This document shows positions 32,551 through 39,327 of a stretch of 39,385 bases of DNA, in pieces (position 1 is the first letter of the stretch; each line of letters starts with the position of its first letter). Both the position numbers and the translations under genes were made by a program. The DNA is from Actinomycetota bacterium (lineage in GTDB: Bacteria; Actinomycetota; Thermoleophilia; Gaiellales; Gaiellaceae): positions 320 to 39,704 of the forward strand of contig PMOB01000005.1 of the NCBI GenBank assembly GCA_003161615.1, read 5' to 3'. A model generated the notes under the pieces. That model was not told where the DNA came from, did not search any database, and was given only the letters and a program-made list of their open reading frames with translations.

Positions 32551-32588
32551 TTGACAGGAGAACATGCGTTCGTATAGAACATACGTTC
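32551..32588 (+). promoter_or_regulatory. LexA-controlled imuB promoter with two SOS boxes
   Basis: A perfect -35 TTGACA (32551-32556) is followed 16 bp later by TATAGA (32573-32578), or 18 bp later by TAGAAC. Two LexA-type palindromes, GAAC-ATGC-GTTC (32560-32571) and GAAC-ATAC-GTTC (32577-32588), fill the spacer and cover the -10. Both fit the actinobacterial SOS consensus core CGAACRNRYGTTYG apart from outer bases. They are 17 bp centre to centre, which puts two repressor dimers at an offset of roughly one and a half turns. Confidence 0.85.
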
Positions 32589-34655: not shown

Positions 34656-35729
34656 GTGCTGCGGTCGCGCCTCGCCATCGTCCTCGCCGTGCTCGCGGCG
34701 ATCGCGCTCGTGGGCGCGCTGCTGACGAAGAAGGGTCACACGCCGGGCGCGACGACCTCCACGCAGCCGAAGCAGAATCCGAATCGGGTTGTGACGCTGA
34801 AAGGGCCGCTACCCGGCGGCCTGCTGATCGCCGACCGCGGCAACAACCGCATCCTTCTCGTCGACCCACGCCGGCGCACGCTCTGGAACTTCCCGACCGC
34901 CCGTGACCGCGCCGGCGGCGCTCACCTGTTCTTCGACGACGACACCTTCGTCGAACCGGGCGGGAAAGCGCTCGTCACGAACGAGGAGGACAACCACGAC
35001 ATCCTCTCGATCAACATCAAGACCGGCCGGATCACGCGCCTCTACGGCCATCCCGGCGTCAGGGGAAGCAGCCCGGGTCTTCTGAACACGCCCGACGACG
35101 CGTACGTCCTCCCCGACGGGACGATGACCGTGGCGGACGCCTACAACTGCCGGATCCTCTTCATCCGTCATCACCGGATCGTCCGCCAGATCGGGACGAC
35201 GGGCGTCTGCGTCCACAACCCGCCGAGCACGCTCGGCTCGGTGAACGGTGACACGCCGCTCCCGGACGGCGGCGTCCTCGTCTCGGAGATCAACGGCTCG
35301 TGGATCGACAACTTCTCGAAGACGGGAAAGTTCCGCTGGGCCTTCCAAGCGCCGGTCTCGTATCCCTCCGACCCGCAGCCGCTCTCCGGCGGCCGGATCC
35401 TCCTCACGGACTACAACAAGCCGGGCGCCGCGCTGATCGTGAATCGCCACGGGCAGATCCTGTGGCGCTACGCGCCCGCGTCGGGGTGGGGGGAACTCAA
35501 CCACCCGTCGCTCGCGATCATGCTCCCGAACGGCGACATCGCGATCAACGACGACTACAACGACCGCGTCGTGATCGTGGACCCGAGAAAGCACAAGATC
35601 GTCTGGGACTACGGGCACCTCGGCCGTTCGGGCACGACGCGTGGCTTCCTCAACACGCCGGACGGGATGGACTACATCCCCCTTGGCCCGCACGAGAAGC
35701 CGCTCTGGCAGCTCGTGCACCACCCGTAG
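34656..35729 (+). CDS. Exported NHL/PQQ-like beta-propeller protein
   Basis: A 357-residue protein with an N-terminal signal anchor (LRSRLAIVLAVLAAIALVGALL), a Thr/Pro/Gln linker and then repeated propeller blades: GGLLIADRGNNRILLVDPRRRTLW, DGTMTVADAYNCRILFI, GGVLVSEINGSWIDNF, GGRILLTDYNKPGAALIV and NGDIAINDDYNDRVVIVDPRKHKIVWDY. About six blades can be counted. No catalytic site is evident; ligand binding on the cell surface is the likely role. It stands between imuB/DUF6504 and dnaE2 without obvious connection. Confidence 0.8.
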   Translation: MLRSRLAIVLAVLAAIALVGALLTKKGHTPGATTSTQPKQNPNRVVTLKGPLPGGLLIADRGNNRILLVDPRRRTLWNFPTARDRAGGAHLFFDDDTFVEPGGKALVTNEEDNHDILSINIKTGRITRLYGHPGVRGSSPGLLNTPDDAYVLPDGTMTVADAYNCRILFIRHHRIVRQIGTTGVCVHNPPSTLGSVNGDTPLPDGGVLVSEINGSWIDNFSKTGKFRWAFQAPVSYPSDPQPLSGGRILLTDYNKPGAALIVNRHGQILWRYAPASGWGELNHPSLAIMLPNGDIAINDDYNDRVVIVDPRKHKIVWDYGHLGRSGTTRGFLNTPDGMDYIPLGPHEKPLWQLVHHP

Positions 35730-35733
35730 CGAA

Positions 35734-35755
35734 CGAACATATGTTCGCCTAGACT
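35734..35755 (+). promoter_or_regulatory. Perfect LexA box and -10 element directed towards dnaE2
   Basis: CGAACATATGTTCG (35734-35747) is a perfect 14-bp palindrome that satisfies the actinobacterial SOS consensus at every position. TAGACT (35750-35755) follows two bases later. It lies in the convergent gap between the propeller and cupin genes, so the transcript would run antisense across the whole cupin gene into dnaE2. TAGACT is 6 bases before ATG 35762, which opens a 119-codon frame ending at 36121 and overlapping the dnaE2 start as ATGA. That frame looks like a codon-aligned shadow of the cupin gene in protein terms, but it could couple translation to dnaE2. Confidence 0.75.
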
Positions 35756-35767
35756 GGGTGGATGAAA

Positions 35768-36106
35768 CTACCCGCGCAGCGAGTCGAGGAAGCCGACGCG
35801 CGGCGTGTGGAAGTTGAGGAGGCGGATCGCCGTCCCCGCCGGGCGGAAGCCGTGCTCGATGTTCGGCGGGATCGAGACGAACGTGCCAGGCACGCTGAGA
35901 TGCCAGGCGCCGTCGAGGAAGAACTCGACCTCGCCCTCGAGGACGTAGAACGAATCCGTGTGGTCGGCGTGGGTGTGCGGGTCGACGCCCTCGAAGTCGG
36001 ATGGGAAAGAGAGCTCGAGCGCCTCGAGGTGCGACAGCTCGGCGAGGACACGGTGGTTCCCGATCCGCTCGCCCCCGCCGGCACTGGTGAAGACGGGCTC
36101 TCCCAT
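35768..36106 (-). CDS. Cupin-domain protein
   Basis: A 112-residue single-domain cupin. Motif 1 is DPHTHADHTDSFYVLEGE, with His44 and His46 and Asp51 near the usual Glu position, and motif 2 is PGTFVSIPPNIEHGF with His85; these bind a metal in the barrel. Many such proteins act on sugars or small aromatics or sense a ligand; no specific reaction can be named. The start codons of cupin and dnaE2 are 11 bases apart, facing away from each other. Confidence 0.85.
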   Translation of the reverse strand: MGEPVFTSAGGGERIGNHRVLAELSHLEALELSFPSDFEGVDPHTHADHTDSFYVLEGEVEFFLDGAWHLSVPGTFVSIPPNIEHGFRPAGTAIRLLNFHTPRVGFLDSLRG

Positions 36107-36117
36107 CGCGCAGGATC

Positions 36118-39100
36118 ATGACGTACGCGGAGCTCCATGCGCATTCCGCGTACTCGTTCCTCGACGGGGCGTCGCAGCCGGAGGAGCTCGCGGCGCGCGC
36201 GGCCGAGCTCGGCTACGAGGCGCTCGCGCTCACCGACCACGACGGCGTCTACGGCTCCCTCGAGTTCGCGCACGCGGCGAAGCACTTCGGCGTCCGCCCG
36301 ATCACCGGGGCAGAGATCACGCTCGCGGGCGGATCGCACGTCACGTTGCTGGTCGAGAGCGCGGCGGGCTACGCGAACCTCTGCCGGCTCCTCACCGCAG
36401 CGCACGCGCACACCCGCGACTCGACGAACCGGGAGCCGTCGCCGCCGCGGCTCGAGCAGACGCTCCTCGAGCAGCAGAACGAGGGGCTCGTCTGTCTGTC
36501 GGGTTGCGCGCGCGACGGGCTCGCCGTGCGGGACCCGAACGCGGCGGTGCGGCTCGCGCGCGCCTTCGGCCGCGACCGCTTCTTCGTCGAGCTGCAGCGT
36601 CCGTACGAGCGCGGCGACGCGCGCCGCAATGCCCGGCTGCGCGAGCTCGCCGAGGAGCTCGGGGTCGCGACGGTCGCGACCGGAGACGTCCACGCCCACG
36701 GCCGCCGCCGAGCAGCGCTGCAGGACATCCTCGTCGCCGTCCGCTGCCGCACCTCGCTCGAGGGCTGTGAGCGCGAAAGGCGCGGCAACCACGAGTCCGT
36801 GTTGCTGTCCCCCCAGGAAAGCCTCGATCGCTTTCCCGAAGATCGTGAGGCGGTCCTCCGCACCGGAGAGCTCGCCCAGCGGCTCGAGTTCGATCTGACC
36901 CAAGAGCTCGGCTACCGCTATCCCGACTTCTCCGATGGGGCGGAGCCGGCGATCGTCCAGCTCCGCCGCGTCTGCGAGGCGGCGTTCACCGAGCGCTACA
37001 GCGACCTCAACGGCCACAAGCGACGCGTCCGGAAGCGGCTGGAGGAGGAGCTCTCGCTCATCGACGAGCTCGGTCTCGCCGGCTTCTTCCTCCTCCACTG
37101 GGAGGTGCTCGAGCTCGCGCGCGAGGTCGCGCTCGAAGTACGCGGCCCCGGCTCGATGCGTCACGTCCTGCCGCCAGGCCGCGGGCGCGGTTCGTCCGTC
37201 GGCTCGCTCGTCTGCTACCTGACCGGCCTCTCACACGTCGATCCGGTCGCGAACAACCTCTCGCTCGGCCGCTTCCTCAACCGTGAGCTCGCGTCGGTGC
37301 CCGACATCGACCTGGACTTCCCGCGCGACATCCGGGAGAAGCTCATCGTCCGCGTTGTCGAGCGCTACGGATCCGAGCACGCCGCGCTCGTCGCGAGCTT
37401 CGCGACGTACCGCTCGCGCGGCGCGATCCGCGACGTCGGCAAGGCGCTCGGCCTCCCGTACGCCGACCTCGAGCGGCTCGCGCGCCTGACGGACGGCTGG
37501 AACGCGCAACGCGTCGCCGAGGAGATCGCGGCGCTCCCCGACGCTGCGACAAAGCTCCGTTCGCCGCGCTGGCGCGCCTTCGGCGCCCTGTGCAGCGAGA
37601 TCGCCGGCCTGCCGCGCCACATCTCCCAGCATCCAGGCGGGATGGTCATCTCGACACGACCGCTCGTCGAGCTCGTCCCCGTCCAGCCAGCCGCGATGGA
37701 AGGACGGCAGATGTGTCAGTGGGACAAGGACTCCTGCGCCGACGCGGGCTTCCTCAAGATCGACCTGCTTGGGCTGGGGATGCTGTCGGCGGTCGAGGAG
37801 TGCGTCGACCTGATCTCGAAGCACCGTGGCGAGCGGATCGACCTCTCGCGTGTGCGGCTTGACGACCCGGACGTGTTCGCCGAGATCCAGCGCGCCGACA
37901 CCGTCGGTTGCTTCCAGATCGAGAGCCGCGCCCAGATGCAGGTCATCCTCCGCACGCGCCCGGAGACGATCGACGACATCACCGTGCAGGTCGCGCTCGT
38001 GCGGCCGGGGCCGATCCAGGGCAAAGCCGTCCACCCGTACGTCGAGCGGCGGCAGAAGCTCCGCGACGATCCGTCCTATCGCGCGCCGGCGGATCATCCG
38101 CTGCTCGAGGAGCCGCTGCGGGAGACGCTCGGGGTGATCGTTTTCCAGGATCAGGTGCTCGACGTCGCCGTCCATCTCGCCGGCTTCTCGGTCGGCGAGG
38201 CGGAGGGGCTGCGGCGCGCGATGAGCCGCAAGCGCTCGCACGCGGCGCTCGAGGCGTGGCGGGATCGGTTCGTTGCGGGCGCGCTCGAGAAGGGGGTGGA
38301 GGACGCGAAGGCGCACGAGCTCTACGACAAGCTCGTCGCATTCTCCGGTTTCGGCTTCCCGAAGTCGCACGCGGCGGCGTTCGGGTTGCTCGCGTACCAG
38401 TCGGCGTGGCTGCGGCACCACTACGCGCCGGAGTTCCTCGCGGCGTTGCTCAACGCGCAGCCGATGGGCTTCTATCCGCCGGCGACGCTCGTACGCGACG
38501 GGCAGCGGCGCGGGGTGGAGACACGGTCGCCGCACATCAACCTCAGCGAGGTCGACTGCGTGATCGAGGACGGCGGAGTTCGCGTGGGCCTGAAGTACGT
38601 GGCCGGAGTGGGGGAGGACGACGCGGAGGCGGTCGTCGCCTCTCGCCCGTACTCCTCGGTGCGCGAGCTCGCGCAGCGGACGGGACTGTCGGAGGACGAG
38701 CTGCGCGCGCTCGCCGAGTCGGGCGCCTGCGACTGCTTCGGGCTGCGCCGGCGGGAGCTCCTGTGGCAGCTCGGCCTCGTGCCGCGGCCGGCGAGCGTTC
38801 CGGGGACTGAAGGGAAGGCGAAGCAGCTCGCGCTTCCTTTGGATCCCACGGCGGCGACGCCGGACCTGCCCGAGCCGACGGTGTGGGAGCGGATGCTGAC
38901 CGACTACCGGACGACGGGACTTTCGGTCGGCGTCCATCCGCTGGCGTTGCTGCGACCGCATCTGCCGCCCGGGACGCTGTCGAGCGAGGAGCTGCGCGTG
39001 CAGCCGCACCGTGCCGAAATCCAGTTCGCAGGGCTCGTCGTCGCACGCCAGCGGCCGGCGACGGCGAACGGCGTCTGCTTCATGCTCCTCGAGGACGAAC

Positions 39101-39327
39101 AGGCGCAGGTGAACCTCGTGATCGCGCCGCAGGTGTACGAGCGCTTCCGCGCGGTCGTGCGCAGTGAGCCGCTGCTACTCGTGCGCGGCCGCTACGAGCA
39201 CTCCGACCGGAACCGGAACGTCCTCGTCCGCGAGCTCGTCTCCCTGGCACCGCTGGCGCGACAGCTGACCGACGGAGCGGACGTCCATGCCGCTCTCCCG
39301 CGCGCCCACCACTTCGGGCACCGGTAG
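36118..39327 (+). CDS. dnaE2: Error-prone DNA polymerase III alpha subunit DnaE2 (ImuC)
   Basis: Translesion polymerase of the SOS mutasome. The PHP domain starts YAELHAHSAYSFLDGAS, with ALALTDHDGVYG and GAEITLAGG (metal His/Asp residues, degenerate as usual in DnaE2). The polymerase core has GRGRGSSVGSLVCYLTGL, PDIDLDFPRDIREK (two catalytic Asp), the finger-domain FLKIDLLGLGMLSAVEE and VQVALVRPGPIQG. An OB domain near 980 (IQFAGLVVARQRPAT) follows, and the protein ends in PRAHHFGHR, like the SRDFR-type end of DnaE2. At 1069 residues it is of DnaE2, not DnaE1 (~1180), length. Only AGGA two bases before ATG 36118 might serve as ribosome binding site, which suggests coupling to upstream translation. 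Confidence 0.95.
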   Translation: MTYAELHAHSAYSFLDGASQPEELAARAAELGYEALALTDHDGVYGSLEFAHAAKHFGVRPITGAEITLAGGSHVTLLVESAAGYANLCRLLTAAHAHTRDSTNREPSPPRLEQTLLEQQNEGLVCLSGCARDGLAVRDPNAAVRLARAFGRDRFFVELQRPYERGDARRNARLRELAEELGVATVATGDVHAHGRRRAALQDILVAVRCRTSLEGCERERRGNHESVLLSPQESLDRFPEDREAVLRTGELAQRLEFDLTQELGYRYPDFSDGAEPAIVQLRRVCEAAFTERYSDLNGHKRRVRKRLEEELSLIDELGLAGFFLLHWEVLELAREVALEVRGPGSMRHVLPPGRGRGSSVGSLVCYLTGLSHVDPVANNLSLGRFLNRELASVPDIDLDFPRDIREKLIVRVVERYGSEHAALVASFATYRSRGAIRDVGKALGLPYADLERLARLTDGWNAQRVAEEIAALPDAATKLRSPRWRAFGALCSEIAGLPRHISQHPGGMVISTRPLVELVPVQPAAMEGRQMCQWDKDSCADAGFLKIDLLGLGMLSAVEECVDLISKHRGERIDLSRVRLDDPDVFAEIQRADTVGCFQIESRAQMQVILRTRPETIDDITVQVALVRPGPIQGKAVHPYVERRQKLRDDPSYRAPADHPLLEEPLRETLGVIVFQDQVLDVAVHLAGFSVGEAEGLRRAMSRKRSHAALEAWRDRFVAGALEKGVEDAKAHELYDKLVAFSGFGFPKSHAAAFGLLAYQSAWLRHHYAPEFLAALLNAQPMGFYPPATLVRDGQRRGVETRSPHINLSEVDCVIEDGGVRVGLKYVAGVGEDDAEAVVASRPYSSVRELAQRTGLSEDELRALAESGACDCFGLRRRELLWQLGLVPRPASVPGTEGKAKQLALPLDPTAATPDLPEPTVWERMLTDYRTTGLSVGVHPLALLRPHLPPGTLSSEELRVQPHRAEIQFAGLVVARQRPATANGVCFMLLEDEQAQVNLVIAPQVYERFRAVVRSEPLLLVRGRYEHSDRNRNVLVRELVSLAPLARQLTDGADVHAALPRAHHFGHR

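Follow-up and report, generated by a model that had tools for sequence, protein, structure and literature searches.

The locus that we describe here, from a group of soil actinobacteria, raises the question of how a gene that is predicted to be inducible by DNA damage is expressed when an entire gene of the opposite strand is located between it and its apparent promoter. The gene is dnaE2, which encodes an error-prone DNA polymerase (ImuC; 36118..39327, plus strand; NF004225, 980 bits, cut-off 939), and all positions refer to the window, i.e. the whole stretch of 39,385 nucleotides that was analysed. As the first-pass annotation had reported, a perfect LexA palindrome and a TAGACT hexamer are situated about 370 bp upstream of dnaE2: the operator, CGAACATATGTTCG (35734..35747, no strand assigned), has its first base 384 nt and its last base 371 nt before the gene, and is followed by TAGACT (35750..35755, plus strand), the -10 element of the predicted SOS promoter, which has the same spacing to the box at other SOS genes of the genus. 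Between this promoter and dnaE2 lies a minus-strand Cupin_2 gene (35768..36106; PF07883, E 5e-11), divergent from dnaE2, with the two start codons 11 nt apart; judging from the position of the promoter, the entire cupin gene would be contained, in antisense, in the SOS transcript. Upstream of the box, a co-directional gene for an NHL/PQQ-type beta-propeller (34656..35729, plus strand) has its stop codon 4 nt before the operator. The same annotation had treated the region as a gap where no plus-strand gene should begin; the plus strand nevertheless has coding potential here, as an ATG at 35762 opens a frame of 119 codons (35762..36121, plus strand), antisense to the cupin gene and in register with its codons, which ends on the ATG of dnaE2.

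The operator is the sole perfect match to CGAACNNNNGTTCG that a pattern search has found within the window. Across the 2.3 Mb genome, the perfect pattern occurs 7 times, compared with 3 for a reversed control pattern, and the box combined with TANNNT at the right spacing gives 29 matches in 16 genomes of the genus, compared with 0 for the control. In the 1.5 kb upstream of dnaE2, a score matrix assigns 43.7 to the site and -7.3 to the next best one, with nothing else positive, i.e. no second SOS-like site; because the matrix was trained on related sites that include this one, it is the contrast that counts as evidence, and not the value of 43.7 itself. The genome also carries LexA boxes at lexA (TIGR00498), at uvrA, and at the genes of a YneA-like LysM protein and of an Rv2578c-like radical SAM protein, and the box of the window is, on this comparison, part of a real LexA regulon. 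The six closest genomes all share TA..CT within the -10 element. A LexA/SOS promoter is recognised by a near-perfect palindrome at the core promoter with the -10 element at a fixed spacing, and by the conservation of the site upstream of the same gene in relatives; both are found at this locus. No -35 hexamer is recognisable by eye at the promoter, and between 34600 and 36300 there is neither a sigma-70-type promoter match nor a plus-strand terminator-like site, the interval between the beta-propeller gene and the box included. Two further observations concern the regulon. In the window, imuB is likewise preceded by a LexA-like box (AGAACATGCGTTCG, 32559-32572; one mismatch), which is located shortly before the probable start codon of the gene. 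At the gene of the YneA-like LysM protein, a probable SOS division inhibitor, two LexA boxes flank the -10 element (L004:1249-1285); the pair also occurs in further species of the genus (L140 and L145), and L144 has at least the first box.

To which gene the promoter belongs can be read from the dnaE2 loci of 60 relatives. A cupin ortholog with 69-76% identity to the cupin of the window, and located within the genus only in the slot before dnaE2, is present in seven genomes of the genus, the one of the window included, and in all seven the box, followed by the -10 element, is found just beyond the cupin stop codon, 377-393 nt before dnaE2. It had been stated in advance that the arrangement would be refuted if relatives with the cupin-dnaE2 pair had lost the palindrome, and no such loss has been found. 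An eighth genome, G008 (locus L012), retains a remnant of the cupin gene and has the box at the same place relative to it. At the loci of the genus that have no cupin gene (L010, L011, L013, L015, L031, L036 and L052), as well as at L020 from another genus, the box is located exactly at -28 from the start codon of dnaE2. Since the beta-propeller gene is the upstream neighbour in L010, L013 and L015, as it is in the window, the two layouts remain colinear as far as the start codon, behind which the cupin gene sets them apart; and since the same module stands directly at dnaE2 in the cupin-less siblings, the module belongs to dnaE2. That the SOS promoter of dnaE2, for which we take 35734-35761, is set behind an antisense cupin gene, and that its transcript must cross the cupin gene, were both proposed by the first-pass annotation, and both are well supported by this comparison. 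In L009 and L037, where the beta-propeller gene is more distant on the upstream side, box, cupin and dnaE2 are still together, which points to a module to which the beta-propeller gene is not essential. The organisms are uncultured and most of the genomes compared are metagenome assemblies, and misassembly is unlikely given that the layout agrees in seven of them. At the relevant forks, the tree is compatible with a gain as well as a loss of the cupin gene, and with either layout as the ancestral one. Two distinct dnaE2 starts, each with its own surroundings, occur in one assembly (L052, G005:C58, and L011, G005:C104), and represent either a second copy or contamination.

The start codon of the upstream frame occupies a conserved position relative to the promoter. 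ATG 35762 is located at box +28, six bases after TAGACT, within the 6-8 nt after the -10 element that characterise a leaderless start, the transcription start being predicted from this spacing. Other SOS genes of the genus (those of a DEDD exonuclease, the radical SAM protein and the YneA-like LysM protein) also begin at box +28 to +30, with lexA (+43) and uvrA (+34) as exceptions, and at this spacing the start codon coincides with the expected start of transcription, which indicates a leaderless mRNA. In all eight genomes with a distant box, a start codon is present at box +28, +29 or +30 (ATG in six, GTG in two) and opens a frame that extends over 64-124 codons to the start of dnaE2; the stop codon overlaps the start codon of dnaE2 as ATGA, the geometry of coupled genes, in seven of the eight, and by a longer overlap in L037. 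Among the six closest genomes, the three positions of the ATG are all invariant, compared with none of the nine flanking positions (six of the spacer and three of codon 2), for which our own arithmetic gives a Fisher exact value of 1/220. The locus L054 has been left out of the resampling figure given next, and rejected as an independent instance of the start codon, because its start codon is found inside the cupin coding sequence, which there makes up the spacer, at a chance of 0.88. Resampling produces such a leader frame in 5-7% of trials per genome; as the eight genomes are related and the events non-independent, these values cannot simply be multiplied. Before dnaE2, no cupin-type genome has a conserved Shine-Dalgarno (SD) sequence.

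The open frame, taken by itself, has been rejected as evidence, since codon usage predicts an open antisense frame with P of about 0.7-0.9 per gene. We have also considered, and rejected, an overprinted functional peptide as the reason for the frame: the differences between species at fourfold sites of the cupin gene (about 0.25-0.40) are similar to those of dnaE2 (0.20-0.37), and a family profile search has returned no family match for the leader peptide. Because the synonymous sites of the cupin gene are not slowed, the peptide itself is probably not under selection, and is probably a by-product. The cupin protein, by comparison of its gene between species (dN 0.09-0.21, dS 0.37-0.62; the mis-framed L037 cupin rows were left out of this comparison and of that of frame openness), is under purifying selection. 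In most genomes of the cupin type, the minus strand of 36107-36120, over the start codon of dnaE2, reads CATGAT some 8 nt ahead of the cupin start, and this is a possible -10 element of the cupin gene that overlaps the dnaE2 start.

We consider it probable that damage induces a leaderless bicistronic mRNA, whose translated first cistron crosses the antisense cupin gene and is coupled to the SD-less dnaE2, and this explanation has to be weighed against three others. According to one of them, the box is not the promoter of dnaE2 at all: dnaE2 would be driven from inside the cupin gene or by read-through from the beta-propeller gene, and the LexA site would serve the small ORF or be a relic. The invisible -35 hexamer speaks for it, as do the beta-propeller gene that ends 4 nt before the box and the terminator-free junction between them, and a weak internal promoter within the cupin gene may be present; we regard this explanation as highly improbable, given the identical module directly at dnaE2 in the cupin-less siblings, the box that stays with the cupin-dnaE2 pair where the beta-propeller gene is more distant (L009 and L037), and the lack of any other SOS-like site in the vicinity. 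According to another, the promoter has been assigned correctly, but the antisense stretch forms a 5' leader that is not translated, ribosomes initiate on dnaE2 independently, and the 119-codon ORF is a side effect of codon bias in a GC-rich cupin gene. This agrees with the usual openness of in-register antisense frames in such genes and with synonymous sites that give no sign of a selected peptide; it is nevertheless unlikely, as it does not account for a start codon that lies outside the cupin gene, is invariant amid variable neighbours and occurs at the spacing of the other SOS start codons of the genus, nor for a dnaE2 without an SD sequence. The genome G008 also argues against it. Its cupin gene has lost about 55 codons in frame, the core of the barrel included, with only a 42-residue stretch that still matches, yet the box, the -10 element, a GTG at +29, the leader frame and the ATGA overlap have all been kept; this is the pattern that would be expected if the leader, rather than the cupin, is what dnaE2 needs.

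The same genome bears on the last of the three, in which the layout is mainly regulatory, an excludon or noncontiguous operon: SOS transcription would silence the cupin gene by antisense pairing or by collision of polymerases, and cupin transcription would damp dnaE2 in undamaged cells. Such systems exist (PMC7154746), and the inclusion of the whole cupin gene in the predicted SOS transcript, the purifying selection on the cupin, and an arrangement kept in seven genomes by an ortholog that occurs nowhere else in the genus are all in agreement with it. However, the SOS promoter and dnaE2 have been kept where the cupin gene is broken (G008) or absent (the sibling species), so that the coupling of cupin and dnaE2 is dispensable, and the function of the cupin gives no ground on which to argue a logic of silencing. 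We find mutual interference between the SOS transcript and the cupin gene plausible, and compatible with the bicistronic explanation; that regulation is the main purpose of the layout appears somewhat doubtful to us.

In the bicistronic explanation, for which sequence comparison establishes the promoter position, the conservation of the leaderless start codon and of the overlap, and the missing SD sequence, LexA would block the promoter of the undamaged cell by occupying the space between the -35 and -10 regions. After damage, LexA would leave, and transcription would start on ATG 35762 or immediately beside it, resulting in a leaderless mRNA. Ribosomes would load onto its 5'-terminal ATG, translate the 119-codon first cistron, which is wholly antisense to the cupin gene, terminate at the TGA that overlaps the ATG of dnaE2, and re-initiate there; in this manner, re-initiation would supply translation to a gene that has no SD sequence. 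Translation would be expected to shield antisense RNA from Rho, and translation of the first cistron would likewise stop Rho from terminating an antisense RNA that would otherwise be untranslated. Coupling through an ATGA overlap, by termination and re-initiation, is established elsewhere (PMC6728339), and leaderless bicistronic expression has been achieved with a synthetic cassette in Corynebacterium (C. glutamicum; PMC10367133); that design needed an active SD sequence before its second gene (PMC10367133), and the absence of one at dnaE2 counts against the coupling that we propose. More tentatively, the first cistron may exist in order to bring translating ribosomes across an antisense gene. 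The antisense strand of the cupin gene could then be viewed as a translated leader that guards the RNA from Rho and is coupled to dnaE2, in which case the insertion of a backward gene between promoter and polymerase gene would have been tolerated, and turned into a control that cupin and induced mutagenesis exert on each other.

The question extends beyond a single locus, as several other genera of the family have two antisense cupin genes between imuB and dnaE2 and their only LexA box before imuB. There, imuB, a small gene (which we take to be duf6504), two antisense cupin genes and dnaE2 follow in this order (L058, L067, L151, L152 and L155, also L059, L060, L061, L153 and L154); in the first five of these, a LexA box is present before imuB and none has been found near dnaE2. 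An SOS transcript would there have to cross two antisense cupin genes, unless the promoter of dnaE2 is SOS-independent. Two of the dnaE2 genes of the two-cupin type are preceded by AGGAG. In another genus (L065/L033), the box is located 118 nt before dnaE2, and a leaderless ATG at box +28 opens an ORF of 17 codons, by hand translation, that is followed by an SD-like GGGAGG; this short ORF is possibly an independent first cistron.

The locus offers a concrete case of how a GC-rich bacterium could place a gene backwards in a stress operon while keeping downstream expression: the antisense gene, by its codon bias, keeps a frame open, and a leaderless start would make of it a translated leader. 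If this is true, the SOS control of dnaE2 would escape LexA-box searches that are limited to about 200 nt from the gene, a cut-off that is in use (PMC9380542), and many of the antisense ORFs that are regarded as "spurious" in GC-rich genomes could act as translated couplers.

Lastly, we have compared the locus with known systems; a literature search for dnaE2 together with a cupin has turned up nothing relevant. Control of dnaE2 by a LexA box is known from the LexA-controlled imuA/imuB-dnaE2 cassette, and from S. venezuelae, where the box of dnaE2 is listed at -68 (PMC9380542). The present locus resembles the cassette in this control and in having, 2.3 kb upstream and on the same strand, an imuB gene that carries a LexA-like box, but here dnaE2 is detached from imuB and has a separate SOS promoter, which is located at a distance of 384 nt on the far side of an antisense gene. 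Antisense transcription also touches the SOS circuit in S. aureus, where an antisense RNA covers lexA (PMC8745188); that RNA arises by read-through of a terminator, whereas here the SOS transcript itself would be the antisense one. In the noncontiguous operon or excludon menE-menC-MW1733-ytkD of S. aureus (PMC7154746), a gene of the opposite strand lies wholly within the transcript of another and the mRNAs overlap, as is predicted from the sequence for dnaE2 and the cupin gene; here, in contrast, the antisense gene separates the first long gene from the promoter and its start codon, LexA and the SOS response act as the switch, and the antisense stretch is apparently translated, whereas the review describes an internal untranslated region. 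The leaderless bicistronic design (PMC10367133) and ATGA termination-reinitiation (PMC6728339) share with the proposed reading of the locus a leaderless first cistron and a stop codon that adjoins or overlaps the second start, by which ribosomes arrive at the second gene; what differs here is that the arrangement is natural and SOS-controlled, with a first cistron of 119 codons that is antisense to another gene and a second gene that is not preceded by an SD sequence.
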